A stretch of 54,938 nt of DNA from Clostridium mediterraneense (GTDB taxonomy: Bacteria > Bacillota > Clostridia > Clostridiales > Clostridiaceae), in assembly GCF_900091705.1 (NCBI RefSeq), contig NZ_LT594785.1, positions 2,259,418 through 2,314,355 of the forward strand. The letters run 5' to 3'. Under the pieces are notes generated by a model, which was not told the DNA's origin, did not search any database, and worked only from the letters and a program-made list of their open reading frames with translations. This document shows positions 1 through 14,981 of the stretch, in pieces. Numbering within the stretch: the first letter of the stretch is position 1; each line of letters opens with the position of its first letter. Both the position numbers and the translations under genes were made by a program.

Positions 1-3000
1 AGTGCTCTTTTATCTAACTTTCCATTTCTATTAAGAGGTAAACTATCTATTTCCATCATATAAGCAGGAACCATATATTCTGGAAGCTCTCTTTTAAGTT
101 CTTTTTTAATATCCTTAATATCTACAGTTTTTTCTGAAACTATATAAGCATAAATAGCCTCTTCACCATTTCTATCCTTCTTATTTATAACGGCAGCATC
201 TTTTACATAATTAATTTTACAAATTGCATTTGTAATTTCTCCAAGCTCTATTCTAAAACCTCTTATTTTAATTTGTTGATCTGCTCTTCCCAAATATTCA
301 ATATTTCCATCTGAAAGCCATCTTGCTAAATCTCCAGTTTTATAAAGTTTTCCTTCTCCAAATGGATTTTCTATAAATCGTTCCTTTGTAAGTTCCTCCC
401 TATTTAAATATCCTCTTGCTACAGAGTCACCTGAAATATACATTTCTCCCTGTACATTAATTGGAACTTTATTCATCATTTTATCTAAAATAAATATTTT
501 ATTATTAGCAATTGGAGTTCCTATAGTCGGAATTCCCTTTATATTATTCTTAGAGTCTATAGTTAAAGTAGTTACAACATGAGTTTCAGAAGGACCATAA
601 TGATTATGAAGTTTCACTTTATTTTCCGCTATAAGATTTTGTGTTTCTAAAGTCAAAGTTAACTGCTCTCCTGCAACCACTATATGATTAGTATTTTTAA
701 TAATAGTTTCTATATAATTTTTTTCTGATTGTAATAATTTAAAATAAGCTGTTGGTAAAAATACTGTTTTAATTTCATTTTTAGTTACAAACTCTAGTAG
801 TCTATCCACATCTTTTCTTAACTCTTCTTTAATTAAGTAAAGTGCTCCCCCTGCTACTAAAGTAGATAAAATCTCTTGACTTGCCACATCAAAACATAAA
901 TTAGCAAACTGTAGTACTTTTTTATCAAGTTCTATTGTTGTATCATTTATTTCAAAGTTAATTAAGTTAGCTAAACTGCTATCCTTAAACATAACACCCT
1001 TAGGTGTTCCGGTTGTTCCCGAAGTATAAATAATATATATAAGACTTTCAGCTGTTCTTTCTACTAAGAAATTTTCTCTATTTCCTTCATAGAGAGTTTT
1101 ATCTTCTAAATGAAGAATTTCACCATTAAAGTCTATATCTTTAACTAATTCCTTTTCTGTTAGAAGTAATTTACATCCACTATTTTCTAAGATAAATTCT
1201 ATTCTTTCTTTTGGATAGTTTATATCTATTGGTAAATATGCTCCGCCAGCCTTTAAAGTTGCTATTATAGAAATTACCATTTCAATTGAACGATTAGCCA
1301 TAATTCCTACTACTGAATCTTCTTGAATAGAGTGTTCTCTTAACTTCCTAGCTAAAGAATTTGCTCTTTCATTAAGTTCTCCATAGCTTATTTCTTCATC
1401 TGCGAATACTAATGCTACTTTATTTGGATTTACTTTTACTCTTTCCTCAAATAATTCTATTACAGAACCTTTATTTTCATACTCAGTCTTTGTATTATTA
1501 AAGCTTTCATCAATTAATTTTTCTTCCTCTTTTGTTATGACTTTAATTTCTCCAATTAAATTATTCAAATTTTTAGAAATTATTTTAAGTAATTCATTAA
1601 AATGAAATAAAAATCTTTTTATAGTTTCTTCTTTAAATAATGCTGTAGAATATTCTGCACCTATAAAATAACCATCTTCCTTACTTTCCATCATCACTGT
1701 TATATCAAATTTTGATACTTTTGCTGCTCCCCATAATTGTTCAGTTTTAAGATTATTTAAATCTAAACTTACCGTTTCATTATTTTTTAAACCAAACATT
1801 ACATCAAATAATGGATTTCTAGATAAATCTCTTTTTACTGAAACAGCTTCTACTAATTCTTCAAATGGATATTCTTGATTTTCATAAGCCTTTATACAAC
1901 TTTCCTTTACTTCCTTTAAAAAACTATTAAAGCTCTTCTTTGATTCTGGCTTTCCTCTCATCGCTAAGGTATTTACAAACATACCCATCATAGTTTCCAT
2001 CTCTTTATTATTTCTTACTAATATAGGTGTTCCTACCACAATATCCTCTTGATTTGTATACTTATTTAAAAGAATCATAAAGGTTGATAAAAGCACCATA
2101 TATTCTGTTGTTCCAGTATTTTTACAAAGCTCTATGATTCCATCCTTTACTTCTTTATCTACCAAAATACTAGTATCTGCCCCTTCATAACTTTGCTCTA
2201 CAGGTCTAATGTAATCATAGGGTAAATTTATTACTGGTGCTTCCTCTTTAAACTCATTAATCCAATATTCTCTTTGGATTTTTAAATCTTTCTTCTCCAT
2301 CCATTGACTATAATCTTTATACTGTAACTTAAGCTCCTTAAGATTTTTACCATTATAAAGATTTGAAAATTCTCTGATAAAAATACCAATACTCATGCCA
2401 TCACTAACAATATGATGCATATCTATAAGAAGATAATTATTAAAATCCTTTTTTATAACCTTTATTCTTACTAAGTTTCCATTTTCTAAATCAAAAGGTT
2501 TTACAAAATCATCAAATATTTCAAGTAATTCTTTATTACTTTCTTCAAAGGAATAATCCACAGTTCCCTTTTCTAAAATCTTTTGAAGAAGCTCTCCCTT
2601 TTCCATTAAAAAGGCTGTTCTTAAAATTTCATGGCGAGCTATAAGCTTTTCTAAAGAACTTTTTACTCTATCTAAATCTAAATCACCTTCTAACTTGTAG
2701 TATGAAGGGGTATTATAAGCTAGGTTGTCCTTATCCATTTTCCAAAGTAAATATATTCTTTTTTGAACAGAAGACATAGGATAAAACTCTTTTTCCTCTA
2801 CTTTTTTAATCTCATCTATCTCTTTTCCTTTAATTTCTTCTATATATTTTGCTATTCCTTCAATAGTTCTCTCAGTAAAGATACTTTTTATAGGAACTTT
2901 TACCTTTAATTCTTCTTCTATTCTATTTGTAAGTTTTGTAGCTCTTAATGAATGTCCTCCAACTTCAAAGAAATCAGTATCAATACTTAAATTTTCGACA

Positions 3001-6000
3001 GCAACAATTTCTTCAAATATGTCTTTTACAATAGTTTCTACTTCATTTCTTGCTGGAATATATCTCCCTAAATCAACAAACTCTATATTAGGTAATGCCT
3101 TTCTATCTAGCTTTCCACTTGTATTTATAGGGATTTTTTCTATCTGCATCATATAAGTAGGAATCATATAGTCAGGTAATTCTTTTCTAATCTCTTTTTT
3201 AACTTCTTTAATTTCAATCTTTTCATCAGAAACTAAATATCCATAAATATTCTTTTCTCCCTTATCATCCTCTTTAGTTATTACTGCTACATCTTTTATA
3301 GATTTAATTTTTCTTATTACATTAGCAATTTCCGCAAGTTCTATTCTAAATCCTCTAATTTTAACCTGATGGTCAACCCTACCTAAATATTCAACAGTTC
3401 CATCAATAAGCCACCTTGCTAAGTCTCCAGTTTTATAAAGTTTTTCTCCCTTTTCATATGGATTATCTATAAATTTTTCACTAGTTAGTTTTTCATTATT
3501 TAAATATCCTCTAGCTAAACCATCTCCACTTATATAAAGTTCTCCTATTGCTCCAATTGGAAGTAATTTATTTTTATTATCTAAAATATATACTCTATAA
3601 TTTTTTAATGGTTTCCCTATTGGAATATCTTCAAATTTATCTATATTATTTTTATTTATATTTTGGTAAGTTGAATCTACAGTACATTCAGTAGGACCAT
3701 AAACATTGGTTATAATTACATCATTTTTTAACTTACTAAATATTTTAATTACAAGATCCTTTAAAAGCTTATCCCCACCTATTATCATTTGTTTCAGTTG
3801 TAATCTCTGATCTTCTAATAGATTAGAATTTGCCATTAAAGATAAATGTATTGGAGTACCATCTGTTATATCTATTTTATTTTCTAAATAAAATTCTATT
3901 AATTTATCTCCATCACTTCTAGCTTCATTAGAAACAATATATAATGAATGTCCTAATAATAAGGAAGCAAATATTTGTTGAACAGACGCATCAAAAGCAT
4001 AATTTGCTACTAATGCAACTTTTAATTTTTTACTATAATTATCATAAACAATATTTTTTAAGTTGGTTACTAAATTAATAACACTTTTATGCTCTATCAT
4101 TACACCCTTTGGATTTCCTGTTGTTCCTGATGTATAAATAACATAAGCTAAATCATTTTTACTATTTATATTCTCTAAAATTTCTTCATCATTTTTTAAA
4201 GACTCTTTTTCAGAAATATCTATAATTTTGCCTTTAAATTGAATTTCTCTACTAAGCTCTTTTGTACTTATTAATAAACGTGCATTACTATTTCCTAAAA
4301 TATATTCTATTCTATTTTGGGGATAGTTTGGATCTATTGGTAAATAAGCTGCTCCAGCCTTTAAAATAGCTACTATTCCTATGATCATCTCAAGAGATCT
4401 ATCCAACATCAATCCTACAATTTCATCTTTTTTAATATTATTTTTTCTTAATACTTTAGCTAAAGCTGTTGCTTTTTCATTTAATTCTTTATAAGTTAAT
4501 TTCTCCTTTTCATAAACGACAGCAATGTCTTCTCCATTTTGCTCTACTTGTCTATTAAAAATATCTACTATAGTTTTCTCATCTTCATAGATAAAATCTG
4601 TATCATTAAATTGATTTAAAATTTTCTCTTTTTCTTTTTCATTTATTATTGAAATATCACCTATCTTTTTATTTTCTTCCTTAAGTATTATTTTTAAAGT
4701 TTCTTTAAACTCCCTTGAAACCTTCTCTATAGTTTTTTTATAGAATAAATCTGTATTATATTCAAATACACCTTTAATTGCCGTTCCATCATCCTCCATT
4801 TGAAGAGTTATATCAAATGATGATCTTTTACTTCCTAGAGCTTCTGGTTCTACCCTTACTCCACTTAATTCCAATTTTGATCCACCTAAATTTTGGTAAG
4901 TGAACATAAGTTGAAAAAATGGATTTCTACTGTTATCTCTTACAGGATTAATTCTTTCAACTAACTGATCAAAAGGAAATTCTTCATTATCATAAGCTTC
5001 AAGTGTAGTTGTTCTGACATTTTGAAGAAAATCTAAAAAATACATGTCATCATCTATTTCTGTTGATAAAACTACAGTATTTACAAAAAATCCTATTATA
5101 TTTTCTATTCCTTTTATTTTTCTATTTGCAACAGTAGTTCCTATTGTAATATTTTTCTGTTTACTATATTTATAAATTAAAACTTTATAAACTGCTAATA
5201 AAACTGTATTTATAGTAAAGTTATTCTTTATAGAATAATCTCGTAGCTCTTTCACTATTTCATCTTCTAAATCAAAAAATATCACATCTCCTTTGCCAGA
5301 TGCTTCAACAGGCCTTTTTTTATCAATTGGAAACTCCACACTTTGCTCAATATTTTCTAGTTTATTCTTCCAATACTCAAACTGCTTTTCCAATCTCTTT
5401 TGTGATAACTCTTTCCTTTGCCATACTGCATAGTCAGCATATTTAATCTCTTCATTTTTAATTTCTATACTTTTACCTTTAGTTAATCTATTATACTTCT
5501 CAGTTAAGCTTCTATAAAATACTCCCATTGACCATCCATCAAAAATAATATGATGAACTACTGTAATAAATATACTCTCATCTTCTCCTACTTTAATTAA
5601 TAAAAACCTAATTAGAGGTCCCTCTTCTAAATTAAATGGTTTATATAACTCTTTTTCATAAATTTCTTTAATTTTTCTATCAATCTCCACTTTAGAATTT
5701 TTAGATAAATCAATTCTATTTATTTTTTCATTAAAATCTGGTTGAATTATTTGCGTTAACTCATCATTTATATCTTTAAATTTGGTCCTTAAAGATTCTT
5801 GCTCCATAGCCATTTCATATAAAGCTTTTTCTAACAAATCTATTTTTAAATCTCCATAAATTCTAAATCCTAAAAATAAATTATAAACAATACTATCTGG
5901 ATTTAATTTATACATAAGCCACAATCTTTTTTGCTCATAAGATGCAATAAAAGAATTTTCATCTTTTTTTCTTGGTAAAAGTTGAATTTTATTAGTTTCT

Positions 6001-6083
6001 AAATTGTTATTTTTCTTTTTTCTCTCTAAAATTGCTTTCAATAAAGCTTTTTTCTCTAAAACTTCTTCTTTTTTATTTTCCAT
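1..6083 (-). CDS. Nonribosomal peptide synthetase, C-A-T-C-A visible (3' end beyond window)
   Basis: This is the N-terminal 2027 residues of a multimodular NRPS. The frame is open to base 1, so the C-terminus is missing. Start is the ATG at 6083, preceded by a GGGAGGAG ribosome site and 28 bases after the stop of the upstream A-T protein. Domains in order: condensation (about 40-480, HHIIFDGWS near 180), adenylation (about 510-1000, YTSGTTGNPKG near 655), thiolation (GGHSL near 1040), second condensation (HHIVSDGMS near 1222) and second adenylation (YTSGTTGTPKG near 1690, closing motif NGKLDKRA at the window edge). Aligned by eye to GrsA-PheA, the first A domain gives the ten-residue code DAQDIGVVDK, close to the Gln code as I remember it. 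The second gives DVQVVAHVVK, which I cannot assign. No epimerase, methyltransferase or thioesterase is visible. Family call is certain; substrates are inference. Confidence 0.96.
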   Translation of the reverse strand, partial: MENKKEEVLEKKALLKAILERKKKNNNLETNKIQLLPRKKDENSFIASYEQKRLWLMYKLNPDSIVYNLFLGFRIYGDLKIDLLEKALYEMAMEQESLRTKFKDINDELTQIIQPDFNEKINRIDLSKNSKVEIDRKIKEIYEKELYKPFNLEEGPLIRFLLIKVGEDESIFITVVHHIIFDGWSMGVFYRSLTEKYNRLTKGKSIEIKNEEIKYADYAVWQRKELSQKRLEKQFEYWKNKLENIEQSVEFPIDKKRPVEASGKGDVIFFDLEDEIVKELRDYSIKNNFTINTVLLAVYKVLIYKYSKQKNITIGTTVANRKIKGIENIIGFFVNTVVLSTEIDDDMYFLDFLQNVRTTTLEAYDNEEFPFDQLVERINPVRDNSRNPFFQLMFTYQNLGGSKLELSGVRVEPEALGSKRSSFDITLQMEDDGTAIKGVFEYNTDLFYKKTIEKVSREFKETLKIILKEENKKIGDISIINEKEKEKILNQFNDTDFIYEDEKTIVDIFNRQVEQNGEDIAVVYEKEKLTYKELNEKATALAKVLRKNNIKKDEIVGLMLDRSLEMIIGIVAILKAGAAYLPIDPNYPQNRIEYILGNSNARLLISTKELSREIQFKGKIIDISEKESLKNDEEILENINSKNDLAYVIYTSGTTGNPKGVMIEHKSVINLVTNLKNIVYDNYSKKLKVALVANYAFDASVQQIFASLLLGHSLYIVSNEARSDGDKLIEFYLENKIDITDGTPIHLSLMANSNLLEDQRLQLKQMIIGGDKLLKDLVIKIFSKLKNDVIITNVYGPTECTVDSTYQNINKNNIDKFEDIPIGKPLKNYRVYILDNKNKLLPIGAIGELYISGDGLARGYLNNEKLTSEKFIDNPYEKGEKLYKTGDLARWLIDGTVEYLGRVDHQVKIRGFRIELAEIANVIRKIKSIKDVAVITKEDDKGEKNIYGYLVSDEKIEIKEVKKEIRKELPDYMIPTYMMQIEKIPINTSGKLDRKALPNIEFVDLGRYIPARNEVETIVKDIFEEIVAVENLSIDTDFFEVGGHSLRATKLTNRIEEELKVKVPIKSIFTERTIEGIAKYIEEIKGKEIDEIKKVEEKEFYPMSSVQKRIYLLWKMDKDNLAYNTPSYYKLEGDLDLDRVKSSLEKLIARHEILRTAFLMEKGELLQKILEKGTVDYSFEESNKELLEIFDDFVKPFDLENGNLVRIKVIKKDFNNYLLIDMHHIVSDGMSIGIFIREFSNLYNGKNLKELKLQYKDYSQWMEKKDLKIQREYWINEFKEEAPVINLPYDYIRPVEQSYEGADTSILVDKEVKDGIIELCKNTGTTEYMVLLSTFMILLNKYTNQEDIVVGTPILVRNNKEMETMMGMFVNTLAMRGKPESKKSFNSFLKEVKESCIKAYENQEYPFEELVEAVSVKRDLSRNPLFDVMFGLKNNETVSLDLNNLKTEQLWGAAKVSKFDITVMMESKEDGYFIGAEYSTALFKEETIKRFLFHFNELLKIISKNLNNLIGEIKVITKEEEKLIDESFNNTKTEYENKGSVIELFEERVKVNPNKVALVFADEEISYGELNERANSLARKLREHSIQEDSVVGIMANRSIEMVISIIATLKAGGAYLPIDINYPKERIEFILENSGCKLLLTEKELVKDIDFNGEILHLEDKTLYEGNRENFLVERTAESLIYIIYTSGTTGTPKGVMFKDSSLANLINFEINDTTIELDKKVLQFANLCFDVASQEILSTLVAGGALYLIKEELRKDVDRLLEFVTKNEIKTVFLPTAYFKLLQSEKNYIETIIKNTNHIVVAGEQLTLTLETQNLIAENKVKLHNHYGPSETHVVTTLTIDSKNNIKGIPTIGTPIANNKIFILDKMMNKVPINVQGEMYISGDSVARGYLNREELTKERFIENPFGEGKLYKTGDLARWLSDGNIEYLGRADQQIKIRGFRIELGEITNAICKINYVKDAAVINKKDRNGEEAIYAYIVSEKTVDIKDIKKELKRELPEYMVPAYMMEIDSLPLNRNGKLDKRA

Positions 6084-6111
6084 ATTACTCCTCCCAAACT
6101 ACTTTTTTAAC

Positions 6112-8016
6112 TTAAAATTCTTCTCCTATTTCACTTAACATAGCTTCTAATTCCTCATCACTAATTGAACTAAATAATTTTTCTTCTATAAGTTTTGATA
6201 ATTCTCTTATTGTTAATCCTATTGTTAAAAATTCTACTAAAGATAAATCAATGTTATAAAGCTCATTTATTTTATAAACCATTTTAGTTGCAATTAGTGA
6301 ATGTCCTCCAACCTCAATGAATCCATCATCTATTCCTATCTTATCCATATCTAAAAGCTCTCTCCATAAATCTACTAACTCTTCCTCTAATGGATTTGTT
6401 GCCTCAACATAATTGCTATCAATTATTTCTTTTATTTCTGGAAGAGATTTTTTATCTATTTTCCCATTATCGGTTAAAGGGAAACTTTCCATAATCATAA
6501 ATTTTGCTGGAATCATATATTCAGGTAAACATTTTTTAATTTCTTCTTTAATATCCTTAATAATTTCTTTATTTTCTGAGATAATATAGGCATTTAATTC
6601 TTTTTCTCCAAGTTTATTTTCTCTTGCCACTACTATTACATCTTCTATACCAGGAACTTTTTTTATAGCCTTATTAATCTCCCCAAGTTCGATTCTATAA
6701 CCTCTAATCTTAACTTGCTCATCTTTTCTTCCTAGATATTCTATATTCCCTTCTAAAGTCCATTTTCCTAAATCACCTGTTTTATAAATTTTCTCATCAT
6801 TTTGGAAAGGATTTTCTAAAAATCTTTCACTAGTTAATTTTTTATTATTTAAATATCCTCTAGCAACTCCATCCCCTGAAATCGCAATTTCACCTACTGT
6901 ACCTATAGGTACTATATTATTTTTTTCATTTAAGATATAAACTTTAAAATTATCAATTGGCTTTCCAATTAATACTGAGCCACCATAATTTTTATCTTTT
7001 TCATATTTATGTGCTATACAACCTACAGTTCCTTCTGTAGGACCATATTCATTTATTATTTCTACTTTTCCACCAAAAAGTTTCATTGTATTATTTACTA
7101 ATTCTTCCTTTAATTCATCTCCTCCAACAATAATCTTTTCTACATTTTCATTAACTTTCGGTAATTCTTTCAATAAAGTTAAATGTGCTGGCGTCACTTT
7201 TATAACATTATTATTATCTAAACTAAATACTTTCTCCATCAAAGAATTAATATCTTCATTCCTATATACCCTAACTTTATTCTCACTTATTAATGGAGAA
7301 AAAATAGATGTAATAGTTAAATCAAAAGAAACTGATGTATAAAAAGCCATAGTTAAATTTTCACTATTTAAATAATTATTCTTTGCATATAAAGAGTAAT
7401 TCACTAAAGATTTATGCTCTATCATAACCCCCTTAGGATTTCCTGTTGTACCTGATGTATATATTACATAGGCTAAATTTTCCCCAGAAGCTTTACTTAT
7501 TAACTTTTTATTATTATGTTGATATAAACTTTCAGTATTTAAATCAATTAACTCTATTTCCGTTTTCACTTTATCCTTAAATTTATCTTCTATTAAAACT
7601 AATTTTGCATTACTATCCTTTAATATATAATTTATTCTACTTTCTGGATACTCTGCATCTATTGGTAAATAGGCACCTCCAGCCTTCAAAATTGCTAATA
7701 TAGCAATTATCAATTTTTCTGATCTATCACTTATTATTCCAACGATAACTTCAGGTCCTATTCCTTTTTCTATTAATATACTCGCTAGAGAACTTGCTTT
7801 TTTATCAAGCTCTCTATAGCTCATTTCTTGATTTTCAAATATTATTGCAATATTATCTGGAACTTTTTTTGCTACCTTTTCAAATAAATCTACTATTGTC
7901 TGCTCTTTATCATATTCTCTATACCTATTATTAAAACTATTCAAAATAAGCATTTCATCACTTTTCTTTAAAACTTCTACATTATTTTCATATTTCTCAT
8001 CAACTATTTTTTTCAT
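6112..8016 (-). CDS. Stand-alone NRPS adenylation-thiolation protein, predicted Asn-activating
   Basis: A 634-residue NRPS module with adenylation (about 35-525) and thiolation (GGHSL near 592) domains and no condensation domain, so it probably loads the first residue. Core motifs visible are YTSGTTGNPKG, NEYGPTEGT, YKTGDLG and NGKIDKKSLP. The specificity code read against GrsA-PheA is DLTKIGEVGK, one conservative change from the Asn code as I remember it (DLTKLGEVGK). It lies between the glycosyltransferases and the large NRPS with 16- and 28-base gaps. Its AAAGGAG ribosome site is embedded in the end of the upstream gene, which implies one polycistronic message. The short acidic C-terminus after the carrier domain may dock to the next protein. 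Substrate assignment is inference. Confidence 0.94.
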   Translation of the reverse strand: MKKIVDEKYENNVEVLKKSDEMLILNSFNNRYREYDKEQTIVDLFEKVAKKVPDNIAIIFENQEMSYRELDKKASSLASILIEKGIGPEVIVGIISDRSEKLIIAILAILKAGGAYLPIDAEYPESRINYILKDSNAKLVLIEDKFKDKVKTEIELIDLNTESLYQHNNKKLISKASGENLAYVIYTSGTTGNPKGVMIEHKSLVNYSLYAKNNYLNSENLTMAFYTSVSFDLTITSIFSPLISENKVRVYRNEDINSLMEKVFSLDNNNVIKVTPAHLTLLKELPKVNENVEKIIVGGDELKEELVNNTMKLFGGKVEIINEYGPTEGTVGCIAHKYEKDKNYGGSVLIGKPIDNFKVYILNEKNNIVPIGTVGEIAISGDGVARGYLNNKKLTSERFLENPFQNDEKIYKTGDLGKWTLEGNIEYLGRKDEQVKIRGYRIELGEINKAIKKVPGIEDVIVVARENKLGEKELNAYIISENKEIIKDIKEEIKKCLPEYMIPAKFMIMESFPLTDNGKIDKKSLPEIKEIIDSNYVEATNPLEEELVDLWRELLDMDKIGIDDGFIEVGGHSLIATKMVYKINELYNIDLSLVEFLTIGLTIRELSKLIEEKLFSSISDEELEAMLSEIGEEF

Positions 8017-8032
8017 AATATACAGCTCCTTT

Positions 8033-9367
8033 TTATTTATTTTTTAATTTTTTTAATAAATACTTTTGCATTTTCTCTGATAATAATTTTTTACTAAAAT
8101 CTCTTGTATCTGTTGAATTTTTTAAATTTTCTTTTTTATCACTATTTAATAATTCATAATTCAAACAATATTTTTCATTGTTTTCCGCTTCCTCCACTAA
8201 TTTAACAATTAAGTCAAAAGCATTTTCGTCACTATGCTCCTTAGCAAAATTTTCACACTTTTCTTTAAATTCTTTACTAAGTAATTTATTTATTCTTTCT
8301 ATTAATTCATTCTTTTGCCATTTAGATGGAGGCAGATAATCACCAACTTTAATTTTTTTAACAATAGATCCGTTTAATGGAGTATCATTACAATCTGCTA
8401 AAATTAACTGTGGTACTCCAGTCTTAATAGCATTACCTATAGTTCCTATTCCACCATGATGAATAATAAGACTCACATTAGTTAATGATTGATATAATGG
8501 AATATACTCAAAATAATAAATATTTTCAGGTAATTTTTTAGGTAATCGCTCTTTATACTTTGTTATTACAATAATTTTTCTATCTAAATTAGAACAAGCT
8601 TCTATAGCAGTTTCATAAAATATATTTTTTATTTTATTGCTTGATCCACCTGATACTATCACTGGTTCTGGCTTTGTTTCTAAAATTTCTTTTAATGGTG
8701 ATTCTAGTGATATATTACTTAAGTCTAAATCCCTCAACGGAAACCCAACTGCTTTAATATCTTCTAAAGAGTTTATAATTTCATTTTTATACCAACTTGG
8801 CCATAATCCAATTTTAACTTTAGGTGAAAATTGCCAATTAATCCAACTCTTTATAGAAGGAAGTCCTATTTCTTCTCTTAATCCATTAGCTTCTTTAAGA
8901 AGTTCTTTTTCTTTTAAATCATGAAAACTTTTAATACTCTCATACTCATAAGGATTCATATAAACAGAAATTAAAGGTAAATTCAATTGTTCTGCTAAAA
9001 GTAACGCTGCTATACTTGACCTATTTTTTGCTATTATTATGGTATCTTTATTTTCACAATATGGTTTTAATAAATTATATTCTTTAAGGTAAACTTCCTT
9101 ATTTTCATATTTTTTTCTAAACTCCTCTATCTCATTAATTTCTGATACTCTATTAGAAACACTAATTAATGCATCAAAAAAATCTTTACACTCCCGTGAA
9201 CTTTCTAATGGAATAAACTTAATATTTTCTCTTTTTATTTTTTCTCCATGACAATAATGAGTAAATATTGTTACACTATGTCCTAAATCCTTAAGTTCCT
9301 TTCCAATTGCTATAAAGGGTAATACATCCCCCTCTCCCCAATGAGTGGTAATAATTATATTTGCCAT
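8033..9367 (-). CDS. GT-B glycosyltransferase (UDP-glycosyl/MGT type), copy 1
   Basis: A 444-residue glycosyltransferase of the GT1/GT28-like GT-B fold used in macrolide, glycopeptide and sterol glycosylation. The N-terminus carries a Gly-rich acceptor-domain start (TTHWGEGDVLPF). The C-terminal donor-sugar signature HHGGIGT lies near residue 303, followed by the typical GVPQLIL stretch. There is no signal peptide or membrane segment, so it should act in the cytoplasm. It sits 21 bases after copy 2 and 16 bases before the A-T NRPS gene. This suggests that it glycosylates the peptide or a precursor. The last 60 residues are Lys/Glu/Asn-rich. Acceptor and sugar cannot be read from the sequence. 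Confidence 0.9.
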   Translation of the reverse strand: MANIIITTHWGEGDVLPFIAIGKELKDLGHSVTIFTHYCHGEKIKRENIKFIPLESSRECKDFFDALISVSNRVSEINEIEEFRKKYENKEVYLKEYNLLKPYCENKDTIIIAKNRSSIAALLLAEQLNLPLISVYMNPYEYESIKSFHDLKEKELLKEANGLREEIGLPSIKSWINWQFSPKVKIGLWPSWYKNEIINSLEDIKAVGFPLRDLDLSNISLESPLKEILETKPEPVIVSGGSSNKIKNIFYETAIEACSNLDRKIIVITKYKERLPKKLPENIYYFEYIPLYQSLTNVSLIIHHGGIGTIGNAIKTGVPQLILADCNDTPLNGSIVKKIKVGDYLPPSKWQKNELIERINKLLSKEFKEKCENFAKEHSDENAFDLIVKLVEEAENNEKYCLNYELLNSDKKENLKNSTDTRDFSKKLLSEKMQKYLLKKLKNK

Positions 9368-9388
9368 CTCTCTTCCCCCTTTAATTTT

Positions 9389-10726
9389 TTAACTTCTAGT
9401 CTTTTTCTTAAGAATCTCTAATATCATTTTTCTTTTTTTAGCTTCTATCATATTTCTATCAGTTGAACTTACTTTTTCTTTTTCTATTACTACATCTTTA
9501 ACTTTAGATAAATTATTTACTTTATAAATTTCTTTATTTTGTAAAACTTTATTAATAATATTTTCTAAATTATTTTCTATGTTTTCTTCATAGATTTTAT
9601 CCTTCATTAGCTTACAATCTCTTTCTAATTTTTTACAATAAATTATCTCCTCCAAGGCATTTTTAATATTTTCATTTTGCCAGCTTATCTCTGGAAGTAC
9701 CTTAGCTACACCTATATTTTTTAATCTATTTCCATTATCAGGACGATCAGCTAAATGTGCTAAAATTAATTGTGCCGTTCCTGCCACTAATGCTTCACTA
9801 GCAGTTCCAATTCCTCCATGATGAATAACAACATCCATATAAGGTAGAATTTCTTTTATAGGTGCTACTCTTAATCTAATTGTATTTTTCCCTAACTTCT
9901 TAGGAACAAATTCATCAAAATCAGTTACTAAAATAGCTGCTAAACATAATTCTTCACAGGCCTTAGTAACTACTTTATAAAATTCTGGATTTATAGCATT
10001 ACTTGTACCTGCTGTTATAAGAGCTACTTTATCTACTTTATTTAAAAACTCCTTTATATTTTGAGGAAGCTCTTTCTTCACTTTATATCTTTTCTCTGGA
10101 AATCCAATCGCTATAGTATTTTTTATACTTTCCACTTCTTCCTTTGCATACCACTCAGGCCATAGGGCGATTTTAAGTTTTGTAGAACACATCCACTCTG
10201 TCCAATTATCTATATCTTTTAATTTAATTTTTTCTCTTACTTTATTTATTTCTTTTTTCATTATTTCCCCTATAATTTCTTCATGTAATTTCAAATGTTG
10301 TATATAATTGGGAGCTAGGAATAAAGAAATAGCAGGTATTTGCTCTTTTTCTGCTGCTAATAATCCTGCTAAACTAAATCGGTGTCTAAATATAATAATT
10401 GTATTTTTCTTTTTGCAATAATTTCTTATAATTTTATATTCTTTATATAATTGACTAAATCCACAATATTTTTTATTAAAGTCATTATATTTTTTAAATT
10501 CTTTTATAGCATCTGATAAAGTAAAAAGCTTATCTATTCTTTCTTTATACTCTTCATAATTATCAAGAGCCACAAAATTCAAAAAATTTTTTTCAGCCTC
10601 TTCTTGATATATACAATGGGTAATTATTGTTACCTCGTGATTTAAATCTTTTAAAATTCTACCTAATTTAATAAATGGTTTTACATCTCCCCCAGTACCA
10701 TGAGTAACAAGAACTATATTTGCCAT
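9389..10726 (-). CDS. GT-B glycosyltransferase (UDP-glycosyl/MGT type), copy 2
   Basis: A 445-residue paralogue of the next gene downstream, matched along most of its length: MANIVLVTHGTGGDVKPF at the N-terminus, a W..W tryptophan-rich central segment, and HHGGIGTASEALVAGT near residue 301. The donor-site region (LADRPDNG) differs from copy 1, so the two may use different sugars or acceptors. The ATG has a GGAGAGG ribosome site. Two TATAAT-like hexamers lie in the 104-base gap to the ABC transporter gene, so a secondary promoter is possible. Cytoplasmic, no membrane segments. The specific activity is unknown; the NRPS context is the only clue. Confidence 0.9.
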   Translation of the reverse strand: MANIVLVTHGTGGDVKPFIKLGRILKDLNHEVTIITHCIYQEEAEKNFLNFVALDNYEEYKERIDKLFTLSDAIKEFKKYNDFNKKYCGFSQLYKEYKIIRNYCKKKNTIIIFRHRFSLAGLLAAEKEQIPAISLFLAPNYIQHLKLHEEIIGEIMKKEINKVREKIKLKDIDNWTEWMCSTKLKIALWPEWYAKEEVESIKNTIAIGFPEKRYKVKKELPQNIKEFLNKVDKVALITAGTSNAINPEFYKVVTKACEELCLAAILVTDFDEFVPKKLGKNTIRLRVAPIKEILPYMDVVIHHGGIGTASEALVAGTAQLILAHLADRPDNGNRLKNIGVAKVLPEISWQNENIKNALEEIIYCKKLERDCKLMKDKIYEENIENNLENIINKVLQNKEIYKVNNLSKVKDVVIEKEKVSSTDRNMIEAKKRKMILEILKKKTRS

Positions 10727-10765
10727 CTAACCTCTCCTTACACTTAAAAAATTACCTTTTTAGGA

Positions 10766-10810
10766 ATTATAATTATTATAATGAAATCGTATACCTTTAT
10801 CTTAAGATAA
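10766..10810 (-). promoter_or_regulatory. Possible internal promoter region with 14-bp palindrome
   Basis: The gap between the ABC transporter and the first glycosyltransferase gene holds a perfect 14-bp palindrome, TTATCTTAAGATAA (10797-10810). Two TATAAT hexamers read on the minus strand (10775-10780 and 10766-10771). No good -35 box is present, so this is a weak call. The palindrome could be an operator or a weak hairpin. Confidence 0.3.
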
Positions 10811-10830
10811 TTTTTTAACACTTTAATTTT

Positions 10831-12519
10831 TTATAAAGTTTCTAAATTATAAAATGAAAAAAATTTACTTTTATTTTCTAAAAGTTCTTTAAATGAACCT
10901 TTTTCTACTATAGTTCCATCATCTATAAATATAATCTCATCATATTTATCTAATAACTCTTCACTAAGTTTATGAGTTATTGTTAATAATGTCAGTTCTT
11001 TTACATTTAACAATTTACTTTCTATATCATATGCTGTCTGCATATCTATAGCAGAAGTTCCTTCATCTAAAACAAGGACTGAACTTTGTTGCAATATTGC
11101 TCTTGCTATCGCTAACCTTTGTTTTTGTCCTCCTGATAAATTATTACCATTTTCTCCAACCATCGAGTCTAATCCATTTTCTAATTTTTCTATAAATTTA
11201 TCAGCTCCACTTAATCTTAATGCGTTATTAAGATTTTCCTCAGAAAACTCCTTATATAAACAAATGTTTTCTTTTATTGTTTTATCAAACATATAAATAT
11301 TTTGATGGATTACAGAGATCATCCTATTTAATTCTTCAATATTTACTTCTTTTATATTTACTCCATCAAAACTAATCTTTCCTTCATAATCTCCATAATA
11401 ACCTATTAAAAGTTTAATTAATGTTGATTTACCAGAACCACTTGTACCTACAATAGCATATTTTTTATTTTTTTCTAAAATTAAATTTAAATCTTTTAAA
11501 ATATTTTTTTTATTATCATACGAAAAAGTTAATCCTTTTACTTCTATCTTTTCAGTAAACTCAGGAATTTTTTCTCCATTTAAGTTTTCATTTTCATAAT
11601 TAATAAAACTATCTATTCTATTTAGTACCTCTTTCATACTTCTTATCTTTGGAACATTCCCAATTATCATAATAACAGGTTGTACAAAAGTACCTGAAAG
11701 CTGAACAATAGCTATTAACATCCCCATACTTAATTTTCCTATAATCACTAAATAAGCCGCTAACGCTATTGCTATAAATTGAGTTGTAATCCCCAAAAAT
11801 TGTGATATAGTTTCATTTAACACAAATAATCTATCAGCTTCAAACTTTTTTCTCACTAATATATTATTTTCTTCGCCAAATTCTTTTTTCATAGGTTCTT
11901 TTAAATTGTAACTTTTAATAATGTCATATCCTAAAAATATATCTTTAATCTTTTTTGTAAATGAAGTTAATTGATTCGAAAGTGATAATTGCTTTTCTTG
12001 TAATATTTTATTAAATATATTGGGTACTAAAAACATAATAAACATTGTAATAAATAAACATAAAGTAACTAATGGGCTAAGCCAAAGTAAAATAATTATA
12101 GTAGTTATAAAAGTTACTAAATATTGAAGTGTCAAAAGAAGTGGTATAATATAATTGTCTTCTACTAACTTAATATCATTTGTTAATATTGAAATATATT
12201 CTCCTGTATTCTTCGAAATGAAATCTTTATAGTTATATCTAAAAAGTCCATTAAAAATTTTATTCCTTATAAATTCAGTAATGTTTTTTATAAAGAGCTT
12301 ACTAAAAATACTATAGATAAAATATAATGTTGCAATAATTATACAATATGCTACAGTATAGAATAAAATCATTTTAAATCCTTCCATATCTCTAATAGTA
12401 ACTTTATCTATCAAACTTTGCATAAGTAAAGATAAACTAACCATTATTAGAGAAAATAAAATACTAAAAATTATAGTAAAAATTAACAAAATCCTATTTT
12501 TTTTAATAGCCTCTTTCAT
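10831..12519 (-). CDS. ABC exporter, fused membrane and ATPase domains
   Basis: A half-size ABC exporter of about 562 residues with a six-helix membrane domain (about 1-300) and an ATPase domain. Walker A GTSGSGKST is near 357, the signature LSGGQKQR near 460, Walker B VLVLDEGTS near 480 and the H-loop ITHK near 512. It has no peptidase C39 domain, so it is unlikely to be a leader-cleaving bacteriocin exporter. I place the start at the ATG at 12519. The in-frame ATG 18 bases upstream (12537) has no ribosome site and lies almost at the predicted transcription start. The inner ATG is preceded by GGAGGGG, although the spacing is short. It is the first gene of the NRPS/glycosyltransferase operon, so export of, or self-protection from, the product is the likely role. 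Confidence 0.93.
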   Translation of the reverse strand: MKEAIKKNRILLIFTIIFSILFSLIMVSLSLLMQSLIDKVTIRDMEGFKMILFYTVAYCIIIATLYFIYSIFSKLFIKNITEFIRNKIFNGLFRYNYKDFISKNTGEYISILTNDIKLVEDNYIIPLLLTLQYLVTFITTIIILLWLSPLVTLCLFITMFIMFLVPNIFNKILQEKQLSLSNQLTSFTKKIKDIFLGYDIIKSYNLKEPMKKEFGEENNILVRKKFEADRLFVLNETISQFLGITTQFIAIALAAYLVIIGKLSMGMLIAIVQLSGTFVQPVIMIIGNVPKIRSMKEVLNRIDSFINYENENLNGEKIPEFTEKIEVKGLTFSYDNKKNILKDLNLILEKNKKYAIVGTSGSGKSTLIKLLIGYYGDYEGKISFDGVNIKEVNIEELNRMISVIHQNIYMFDKTIKENICLYKEFSEENLNNALRLSGADKFIEKLENGLDSMVGENGNNLSGGQKQRLAIARAILQQSSVLVLDEGTSAIDMQTAYDIESKLLNVKELTLLTITHKLSEELLDKYDEIIFIDDGTIVEKGSFKELLENKSKFFSFYNLETL

Positions 12520-12545
12520 AGCCCCTCCAAATACCATTTAATAAA

Positions 12546-12554
12546 ATTATATCA
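12546..12554 (-). promoter_or_regulatory. Extended -10 promoter of the NRPS operon
   Basis: On the minus strand the sequence reads TGATATAAT, a perfect extended -10 (TG-n-TATAAT), ending about 9 bases before the upstream ATG of the ABC exporter frame. No convincing -35 was found. Transcription would start around 12537-12540, which supports use of the internal ATG at 12519. Confidence 0.6.
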
Positions 12555-12805
12555 TATTTATTTATTTTTTACTTATATTTACCAATTTTATATTTAATAT
12601 TTTTTCTATTTAACTTTTAAGTATTTTTAAAACCTACACTTTTAAATTATTGGTAATAAGAAAGGGCTGTATTAAAATAAATTTTTATATTTTCGCAACA
12701 AAAGTAAATACACTAAATCAAAGAAAAATAAGTAATTACATATATCAAAAAGCTTTATAGAATTGAGCTTTCCTAATTAAAACTTAATATATTAGTTTTT
12801 TAATA
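12555..12805. other. AT-rich intergenic region, no gene seen
   Basis: About 250 bases between the head of the NRPS operon and the helD terminator. Both frames are full of stops. A segment at 12660-12690 starts like the terminators nearby but lacks a matching arm. Nothing else is supported. Confidence 0.5.
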
Positions 12806-12865
12806 AATAAAAAAAGAAGCTGTATCTGAATTGATTTATTAAATCAATCTGATACGGCCTCTTTT
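12806..12865 (-). terminator. Rho-independent terminator after helD
   Basis: A long, slightly imperfect hairpin. Its arms at about 12812-12838 and 12840-12864 pair GTATCAGATTGATTTA with TAAATCAATTCAGATAC and then AGAGGCC with AGCTTCT-like sequence. It is followed on the minus strand by a run of seven T. It starts a few bases past the helD stop. Confidence 0.85.
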
Positions 12866-12869
12866 ATCA

Positions 12870-14981
12870 TTATTTCTTTAAAACTATATCACTTAAGCTA
12901 TGTAAAGCTCTTGTACACATAATATATTTTATTAAATCTTCATTCTTAATATCTTCTTCAAAATCCGCTATTATAACCCCATCAAATTCTAATCCTTTAG
13001 CAAAATAAGATGGTATTATAAGATTTCCTCCTTTATAAAGAACATCTTCATTATCAAACTTAACTAAATGAATATCCTCTTTTAAAAGATTCCAAACTTC
13101 TTCTAGTTTTTCTCCATTTCTAGTTACTATAGCTACGCTTTCAAGCCCTGAAGCATTTAGTTTCTTAATTTTTCTTAATAAATTATCTTTAAATTCTTCC
13201 TTATTATTAGCTAAAACTGATTCAACTTGTTCTCCACTTCTAACTAATGGAACTATCTTATCTTCAACTAAGAACTTATTAGCATATTCCATTATTTCTG
13301 ATGTACTTCTATAACTATTATTTAAATTATAAATTTCAGTTTCAACATCATTAAATATTTGTCCAAGCTCTAACATAGAAGCTCTATCTGAATATTTTAT
13401 AAGTCTTTGGTTAACATCTCCAACTACTGTGAAATACTTACTTCCTATAAGTTCTCTTATAACTTTAAATTGTAATGGTGAATAATCTTGAGCCTCATCA
13501 ATTACAACATGTCTATAATCTCTCTTAGCCTTTTTACCTTCAAGCTTTATCATAAGATATAAAATAGGTGCAAGGTCATTTATTGTTAAAAGTCTATTTT
13601 CATTAAATTTATTATAAATAGATACTATACTTTCTGTTACTATCCATTCATCAAGAACTTTTCTACTATTCATAACTTCTCTAATAATTTCTCTAACTCT
13701 GATTTTTCTCTTAAATTCTATATCATTTTCATCTCTTAATAATTCTTCATCAGTTAAAGATTCTTTTAACTCTTTTATTTCCTTTACAAGCTCTCTAAAC
13801 TTTTCATCTCTCTTATCCTTTATCTTAACTGTAAGGATTCTTCTTATCTTTTCAGCTCTTCTAAATAAAGGCATATACGCATAGTGCTTTTCAAATAATT
13901 CCTTAATTTCTTCAACACTAACTATTTCTTCTCCATAATACTCAACTGGTTTTATATTAAAGTAATCTTTTGATATTTCATCAACATATTTATCTAAATC
14001 ATCTATAAATTCAAATGAGCTCTTATAAACTTCTCTATCAATAATTTCACTATCTTTTTGAACTATTTTTTCTAGATAATCTTCATAAGGCATTATTTCT
14101 ATATCTTCACCTATCTCACTAATAGCAAAGCCTAAGAAAGTTTCTTGTTTAACACCAACCTCACCAAGGCTAGGTAAAACTTGTGAAATATAATCCATGA
14201 AAATACTATTAGGTCCAAGTATAAGAACTTTTCCTTCAAGTTCTTGTCTATTATTATAAAGAAGATATGCAACTCTATGAAGTGCTATAGTAGTTTTACC
14301 ACTTCCAGCAACTCCATTAACAACTATATTCTTAGTTCTTGGCATTCTTATTATTTTATCCTGTTCTTCTTGGATTGTCATAATAATATCTTTTAGCTTT
14401 TCTGAACTATTTTTACTTAAAACCATTTGTAATATTTCATCTTTAACATCAACAGCAGAATCAAAAATACCTTCTAATTGACCTTTTTTAATTATTAATT
14501 GTCTTCTTCCTGTTATATCAACCTCTATATCTCCACTAGGTGCTTTATAACTAGCTTTACCTAGACCTCCATTATAGAAAAGTCCTGCAATAGGAGCTCT
14601 CCAGTCAACAACAGTTGGTTCAAAACTACCTTCTGGTGTAACTCCAAATCTACCTATATATAAAGTACCTATTTCATCAAATTCTATATCAGTAAAATTA
14701 ATTCTTCCAAAGTAAGGTGAGTCCTTTAAGATAGTAAGTTCTTTTAATTTTTTATCAATAGTTTTAAATGACTCTTCCTTCACATATTTTTCATGATCAA
14801 AATATTCTATAAGTTTATCTTCATCATCTCTATACTCATCAATAGCATTTTTTCTTTGTTCTACGATATATTCTGTTAAAAATTTTCTTTTATTAATGTA
14901 GGATAACATTTCTTCTGAAATAATATTTAAAGTATCCTCTAACTTTTTTTCTTCAACTAAAAATTCTATATCTTTTGACAC
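12870..14981 (-). CDS. helD: HelD-like RNA polymerase recycling ATPase (UvrD-like superfamily 1)
   Basis: A 703-residue superfamily 1 helicase-like ATPase. The N-terminal part (about 1-110) is a charged coiled-coil arm as in HelD. Walker A GVAGSGKTT is near residue 222 and Walker B VIDEAQD near 490. The motif GDVNQR and a C-terminal helicase segment with YFAKGLEFDGVI follow. In Bacillus, HelD binds RNA polymerase and releases stalled complexes using ATP. The start is GTG, with an AAAGG ribosome site about 10 bases upstream. It stands alone between its own terminator and an extended -10 promoter. A rifamycin-resistance type HelD is a possible subtype, but I cannot separate the two by eye. Confidence 0.9.
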   Translation of the reverse strand: MSKDIEFLVEEKKLEDTLNIISEEMLSYINKRKFLTEYIVEQRKNAIDEYRDDEDKLIEYFDHEKYVKEESFKTIDKKLKELTILKDSPYFGRINFTDIEFDEIGTLYIGRFGVTPEGSFEPTVVDWRAPIAGLFYNGGLGKASYKAPSGDIEVDITGRRQLIIKKGQLEGIFDSAVDVKDEILQMVLSKNSSEKLKDIIMTIQEEQDKIIRMPRTKNIVVNGVAGSGKTTIALHRVAYLLYNNRQELEGKVLILGPNSIFMDYISQVLPSLGEVGVKQETFLGFAISEIGEDIEIMPYEDYLEKIVQKDSEIIDREVYKSSFEFIDDLDKYVDEISKDYFNIKPVEYYGEEIVSVEEIKELFEKHYAYMPLFRRAEKIRRILTVKIKDKRDEKFRELVKEIKELKESLTDEELLRDENDIEFKRKIRVREIIREVMNSRKVLDEWIVTESIVSIYNKFNENRLLTINDLAPILYLMIKLEGKKAKRDYRHVVIDEAQDYSPLQFKVIRELIGSKYFTVVGDVNQRLIKYSDRASMLELGQIFNDVETEIYNLNNSYRSTSEIMEYANKFLVEDKIVPLVRSGEQVESVLANNKEEFKDNLLRKIKKLNASGLESVAIVTRNGEKLEEVWNLLKEDIHLVKFDNEDVLYKGGNLIIPSYFAKGLEFDGVIIADFEEDIKNEDLIKYIMCTRALHSLSDIVLKK

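Follow-up and report, generated by a model that had tools for sequence, protein, structure and literature searches.

The left end of a 54,938-nucleotide stretch of the Clostridium mediterraneense genome raises the question whether two glycosyltransferase genes beside a nonribosomal peptide synthetase (NRPS) belong to a pathway for a sugar-bearing peptide. This whole stretch, hereafter the window, corresponds to C5:2259418-2314355 (C5 being contig NZ_LT594785.1) in a host genome of 3.08 Mb and five contigs. A reading made from the sequence alone (the sequence-only reading) had described five genes packed on one strand, namely an ABC exporter, two GT-B glycosyltransferases (GTa and GTb), a free-standing protein of adenylation (A) and carrier (T) domains (A-T) and a large NRPS, and had proposed a glycopeptide-like product. 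All five were located as described, on the minus strand, with domains assigned by Pfam. With a probability of roughly 0.6, we consider that they belong to a cluster, acquired or lost en bloc, which makes a glycosylated nonribosomal peptide, on the basis of its gene set, gene order and domains, of the match between the A-T code and known asparagine modules, and of its conservation. To our knowledge, strict anaerobes have yielded few nonribosomal peptides so far. The locus is of interest for its anaerobic host, for two lineage variants that differ in module number, for a terminal condensation-like domain and for an SGNH-motif protein.

Organization of the cluster

The part inside the window, all on the minus strand, consists of an ABC exporter half-transporter with membrane domain and ATPase (10831..12537; 568 aa; Pfam ABC_membrane and ABC_tran; MsbA-like, below the NCBIfam cut-off), the GT1/GT-B glycosyltransferases GTa (9389..10726; 445 aa; EryCIII-like_C, Glyco_transf_28 and UDPGT) and GTb (8033..9367; 444 aa; EryCIII-like_C and Glyco_transf_28), the A-T loading module (6112..8016; 634 aa; AMP-binding, AMP-binding_C and PP-binding) and the first part of the NRPS chain (3..6083), which reads C-A-T-C-A, C standing for condensation (two Condensation and two AMP-binding matches), and runs past base 1 after an assembly gap. 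The NRPS domains are C1 (4617..5948; Condensation match and tree placement), A1 (AMP-binding part 3501..4559), T1 (2841..3029; PP-binding, residues 1019-1081), C2 (1515..2792; motif HHIVSDG) and a proline-type (Pro) A domain (1..1381). The Pfam domain E-values, from 4e-220 for the NRPS down to 2e-12 for the weaker glycosyltransferase, together with the recurrence of the gene order in a second species, indicate that the arrangement is not due to chance.

The intergenic distances are 28 (NRPS/A-T), 16 (A-T/GTb) and 21 bases (GTb/GTa), in agreement with the 16-28 bases claimed for genes 2 to 5, and 104 bases separate GTa from the ABC gene. Shine-Dalgarno-like purine runs stand at the starts of the NRPS (GGAGGAG), A-T (AGGAGC), GTb (AGGGGGAAGAG) and GTa (AAGGAGAGG) genes, and spacing and start signals fit a single operon from GTa to the NRPS. 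An in-frame ATG at 12519 in the ABC gene is preceded by GGAGGGG, and this position is probably the start rather than 12537.

The cluster looked cut at the window edge because base 1 sits exactly where an assembly N-gap ends. Leftward extension recovered the remainder, with gaps, down to C5:2226708, and the cut supposed by the sequence-only reading was thus accounted for. Further NRPS modules, read through Condensation matches and motifs only, are followed in order by a 397-aa SGNH-motif protein, the cluster's own Sfp-type phosphopantetheinyl transferase (PPTase; C5:2227410-2228114; Pfam ACPS and AASDHPPT_N), a stand-alone Thioesterase-family (TE) protein and panD. Ten Condensation matches were found in the whole genome, all on C5 in this cluster; nine exceed the Pfam cut-off, two of them in the window, and the tenth, a weak one, sits at the NRPS end. 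Catalytic motifs are intact in the C, A and T domains listed, with the single exception of HHIVSDA in place of HHxxxDG. The succession of C, A and T domains, their motifs being intact, and the presence of an Sfp-type PPTase both befit an NRPS system.

Conservation and chromosomal site

The order GTa-GTb-(A-T)-NRPS-SGNH-PPTase-TE recurs, without the ABC gene, in Clostridium brassicae ZC22-4 (NZ_JAPQFJ010000009.1; G146) and in genome G150, so that the pairing of the two glycosyltransferases beside the NRPS is kept in the same order in both. The C. brassicae proteins comprise 452 (GTa), 456 (GTb), 645 (A-T), 5605 (NRPS), 400 (SGNH), 235 (PPTase) and 231 aa (TE), the NRPS being one protein of five C-A-T modules and a terminal domain in which no epimerization (E) domain was seen. 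Identities to the window genome are 60% (GTa), 55% (GTb), 63% (A-T), 48% (terminal region), 75% (SGNH, the best conserved member), 48% (PPTase) and 60% (TE). That gene order is kept at 48-75% identity per gene despite different module numbers supports the proposed pathway, and membership of the same family as C. brassicae bears out the clostridial origin that had been assigned. G150, a single-contig genome, has split frames for the NRPS and the PPTase and a short one for the TE; since a transporter beyond its cluster is also split, sequencing error is as likely as decay.

At E<=1e-20, GTb matches were obtained in 3 of 206 family genomes (the window genome, G146 and G150). Within the genus, at E<=1e-10, two of seven genomes matched, the second (G006) through two weak matches near 1e-11 with 25-26% identity. 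A glycosyltransferase profile matched 1 of 398 genomes of a phylum sample at E<=1e-40, the window genome only; G146 and G150 are absent from the matches of the class and phylum samples, each taken from a larger group, and those tallies therefore miss known carriers and cannot be read as frequencies. When named-species genomes (nominally 84,980) were scanned for close GTb relatives, the scan matched 20 stretches, one of which encodes a relative, that of C. brassicae ZC22-4. Among plasmid records, five had distant GTb matches (22-27% identity) and none the SGNH protein.

The right-hand neighbour of the cluster is the gene for HelD (window 12870-14981), an RNA polymerase recycling motor, which is above the NCBIfam cut-off and occurs in all seven genus genomes. 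It lies 53 kb from a solute-binding-protein gene in the window genome, with the cluster between them, and the distance between the orthologs, taken between tblastn matches, is 217 bases in G006 and 4.0 kb in G005. The distance from another left-flank gene to HelD is 2.0 kb in G002 and 8.8 kb in G004, and in the G003 stretch a left-flank ortholog was not seen apart from weak ATPase matches. None of the five genus stretches at HelD (G002-G006) gave a glycosyltransferase, A-T, PPTase, TE or SGNH match at E<=1e-15, and the ABC gene matched only other ATPases there (32-33%). In C. brassicae the cluster is surrounded by other genes. From these comparisons we conclude that the cluster was acquired or lost en bloc. 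G+C content (25-28% over 1-12000 vs 23-32% over the window) is uninformative on its origin.

Adenylation domains and the predicted peptide

The pocket-code read-out was controlled on the bacillomycin D synthetase (NZ_CP083716.1), whose module order we take to be Asn-Tyr-Asn-Pro-Glu-Ser-Thr and whose codes were read as DLTKIGEVGK (BamA), DALSVGEVVK, DLTKIGEVGK, DVQFIAHVVK and DAKDLGVVD- (BamB), and DVWHFSLIDK and DFWNIGMVHK (BamC). The A-T code, DLTKIGEVGK in all three carrier genomes, equals those of BamA Asn1 and BamB Asn3 at 10 of 10 positions, and the peptide therefore probably begins with Asn. The first NRPS module has the Glu-type code DAKDIGVVDK in C. brassicae and DAQDIGVVDK (A1) in the window genome, which we presume to specify Gln. 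The remaining codes, to which no substrate was assigned, are DGWAVAAVSK, DITQTGVVWK, DVCYLGGICK and DITQMGVVWK (twice) in the window genome, and DAWLVGAVIK, DSELTAEVCK, DGWAVASVCK and DITQMGVIWK in C. brassicae. Alignment of DITQxGVxWK with the linear gramicidin synthetase and plasmid NRPSs yielded no substrate assignment; for DGWAVAxVxK, 'Gly-like' and 'Trp-like' are tentative labels. Six code strings, sought at two lengths in open-access papers, never occurred two together in one paper. A lipopeptide start is not favoured, as the first gene on the NRPS side is the A-T gene with its Asn code and no acyl ligase or polyketide synthase (PKS) gene was identified beside it.

The Pro-type A domain at the window edge (DVQFVAHVVK) agrees with the bacillomycin Pro code at 9 of 10 positions and is one of six near-identical copies. 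Five are full (1381 bases) and differ by 1-7 bases over the ten pairs; the sixth, a 783-base partial copy, differs by 2-3. The NRPS is broken by four N runs (292-1358 bases), each bordered by this domain. The copies (window 1-1381; C5:2242603-2259417) border every gap, and the modules flanking them are much less alike. Such near-identity suggests that an A domain was recently duplicated or underwent gene conversion. Because the same domain stands at all four gaps, the Pro modules could number two to six; the modules read correspond to at least nine residues, loading module counted, a lower bound given the four gaps. These gaps, edged by near-identical sequence, might also mean that the window-genome cluster is decaying or misassembled and makes nothing, the working copy being in C. 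brassicae only; with ten Condensation matches free of internal stops, and the catalytic motifs of the listed domains intact apart from one HHIVSDA, we hold this to be very unlikely.

Condensation domains and chain release

The C domains were placed in a FastTree tree that shows no support values; false motif matches duplicate a few domains in it, and the E, DCL and LCL labels of the reference domains are presumed. On these labels, one of the nine Condensation matches is assigned as an E domain and groups with the E domains of bacillomycin and Paenibacillus; the next C domain groups with reference C domains that follow E domains. C1 and its C. brassicae counterpart branch off deeply on their own, next to the LCL domains, and C2 falls inside the LCL branch.

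In both clusters the NRPS closes with a degenerate C-like domain carrying NHxxWDF, in which the His and Asp of HHxxxDG are retained. No TE domain follows it, and a separate Thioesterase-family protein is encoded. A profile of this terminal domain matched 4 of 391 genomes of the class sample at E<=1e-8 (the window genome, G263, G287 and G399), being NRPS-terminal there too. The domains of G399 and G287 carry the whole motif HHSIWDG, which suggests a catalytic family. Those of both clusters branch with that of G287, on long branches; that of G399, having fallen short of the blastp filter, is not in the tree. A PDB profile search with the terminal domain gave no significant match, and the stretches fetched from G399 (40 kb), G263 (15 kb) and G287 (33 kb) contained no glycosyltransferase or SGNH relative at E<=1e-5.

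Glycosyltransferases and the SGNH-motif protein

GTa and GTb are 33-34% identical to each other, and all four glycosyltransferases aligned carry the motifs GDVxPF and HHGGIGT without variation. Structure models built on four-sequence alignments were of moderate confidence (mean pLDDT 75.2 and 77.7, pTM 0.65 and 0.71) and matched GT-B antibiotic and sterol glycosyltransferases in Foldseek with probability 1.00. The top matches were CalG1, a GtfA chimera, UGT51 and GtfB for GTb, and UGT51 (yeast sterol glucosyltransferase, first) and then GtfA for GTa; GtfD was also near the models. With their HHGGxGT donor motif and, in these moderate-confidence models, a GT-B fold, both proteins belong to GT1; the models indicate fold and family, not donor or acceptor. 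NCBIfam matches of both were to macrolide-type and related glycosyltransferases, inactivating ones included, all far below the cut-off. Such enzymes might serve self-resistance, intracellular glycosylation inactivating the peptide or its precursor and the sugar being lost on export to leave a sugar-free product, as is known for oleandomycin. That both lineages have two divergent glycosyltransferases at the operon head speaks rather for two sugar transfers, a glycosidase was not identified among the cluster genes, and we find this explanation improbable.

The SGNH-motif protein has no Pfam match at E<=1e-3; the C. brassicae copy gave a weak GDSL match (E 0.016), and a PDB profile search gave nothing significant. 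GxSH and DxxH blocks are common to the window-genome, C. brassicae and G420 copies, G420 being the only other genome of the class sample matched by an SGNH profile (2/391; 34% identity). The G420 relative (C11:369463-370635), in another family of the class, is flanked by glycan-building genes. Among the nine proteins scanned from this 80-kb region are FlgK, flagellin, a family 2 glycosyltransferase, two nucleotidyltransferases and LicD. On the strength of its motifs and of this neighbourhood, the protein may modify a sugar.

The setting in G420, where glycan and flagellar genes surround the relative and no NRPS-side protein matched in the 80 kb fetched, and the first rank of yeast UGT51 for GTa could also be read as signs that the glycosyltransferases and the SGNH protein serve surface-glycan or glycolipid synthesis and are merely co-transcribed, the NRPS peptide being plain. 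We think this unlikely: in three genomes these genes stand on either side of the NRPS, no gap exceeding about 220 bases, and a GTb match is missing in 203 of 206 family genomes at E<=1e-20, so that the glycosyltransferases go with the NRPS. They probably act on its peptide, and the product would then carry sugar.

Proposed biosynthetic course

For a glycosylated nonribosomal peptide, the following course is proposed. The PPTase would prime the carrier domains and the A-T protein load L-Asn, which C1 would couple to Gln, or to Glu in C. brassicae. In the window species the NRPS would extend the chain by at least seven further residues, Pro among them and one epimerized by the single E domain seen; in C. 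brassicae it would add four. Because no TE domain follows it, the terminal C-like domain is proposed to empty the last carrier domain, the attacking group being an amine or part of the peptide itself, with the stand-alone thioesterase perhaps assisting. GTa and GTb would add sugars with common nucleotide sugars as donors, the SGNH-motif protein would alter the sugar or the peptide, and in the window species the ABC protein would export the product.

Several observations weigh against this proposal. In the window genome the terminal domain is below the Pfam cut-off, and its C. brassicae counterpart gives no Condensation match; as it groups on long branches that lack support values, it may have no activity or an unrelated function. 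Solved enzymes are distant from the glycosyltransferases: the best phmmer E-value for GTb was 3.4e-13, and the best solved match of a four-row profile (3.5e-23) was a sterol glucosyltransferase. Among the cluster genes, none for sugar nucleotides was identified. The ABC gene is without counterpart in the C. brassicae cluster, its only match being another ATPase (30% over 171 residues). Several codes (DVCYLGGICK, DITQxGVxWK, DGWAVAxVxK and others) had no match in the bacillomycin control run. A consensus scan of 5900-13200 is neutral: with 45 promoter-like sites against 53.5 in shuffles, and one terminator-like site against 1.1, it did no better than shuffles and neither supports nor breaks the operon.

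A more specific proposal is offered tentatively, as we consider it rather less probable: a new clostridial glycopeptide family, Asn-initiated, doubly glycosylated, decorated by an SGNH enzyme that surface-glycan pathways also use, with release through a new branch of terminal C-like domains instead of a TE domain. If true, the SGNH protein would be a glycan-type tailoring enzyme on an NRPS line and the terminal domain a TE-free release step. With C. brassicae as a named carrier and the NRPS in a single open frame there, the product is directly testable.

Comparison with known systems

Among the genes from ABC to panD, with the NRPS parts outside the window covered through Condensation matches and motifs only, no oxygenase, halogenase, hydroxyphenylglycine or dihydroxyphenylglycine (Hpg/Dpg) or deoxysugar genes were identified. 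A vancomycin-type glycopeptide cluster is rejected, as cross-linking P450s, Hpg/Dpg supply and deoxysugar genes were not among the genes identified over this range. What stands of the term 'glycopeptide-like' is therefore only that the peptide probably carries sugar, the folds of the glycosyltransferases being equally near CalG1 and UGT51. Vancomycin-type systems are alike in having GT1 enzymes of the GtfA/B/D fold beside the NRPS and a degenerate C-like domain in the last module (the X domain); unlike them, the present peptide is predicted to be Asn-first, and no TE domain follows the present C-like domain. The iturin/bacillomycin synthetase (NZ_CP083716.1) shares the Asn-first logic, the identical Asn code and nearly identical Pro and Glu codes, but BamA is annotated as a PKS/NRPS hybrid and no glycosyltransferase is among its eight annotated neighbours shown. 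Rhabdopeptide-type and fungal NRPSs can also end in a C-like domain without a TE domain; the motif of the present domains, [HN]HxxWD[GF], is a probable difference.

NRPSs with tailoring glycosyltransferases are a well-known kind of system, and the present cluster reads as an undescribed family within it, one whose release end is unusual and which has a conserved SGNH-type protein. Judged by titles and the starts of abstracts, the open-access literature searched gave no recognised description of a glycosylated nonribosomal peptide from Clostridium. Two Clostridium NRPS clusters without a MIBiG match have been reported (PMC8456703), and the main text of that paper has no word starting with 'glycosyl'. 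The cluster is real, conserved and rarely found, and it is undescribed as far as this literature search reached.

At its far end, panD (aspartate decarboxylase; C5:2226223-2226624) directly follows the thioesterase gene; it was matched in four of the seven genus genomes, the window genome included, and therefore probably lies outside the cluster.

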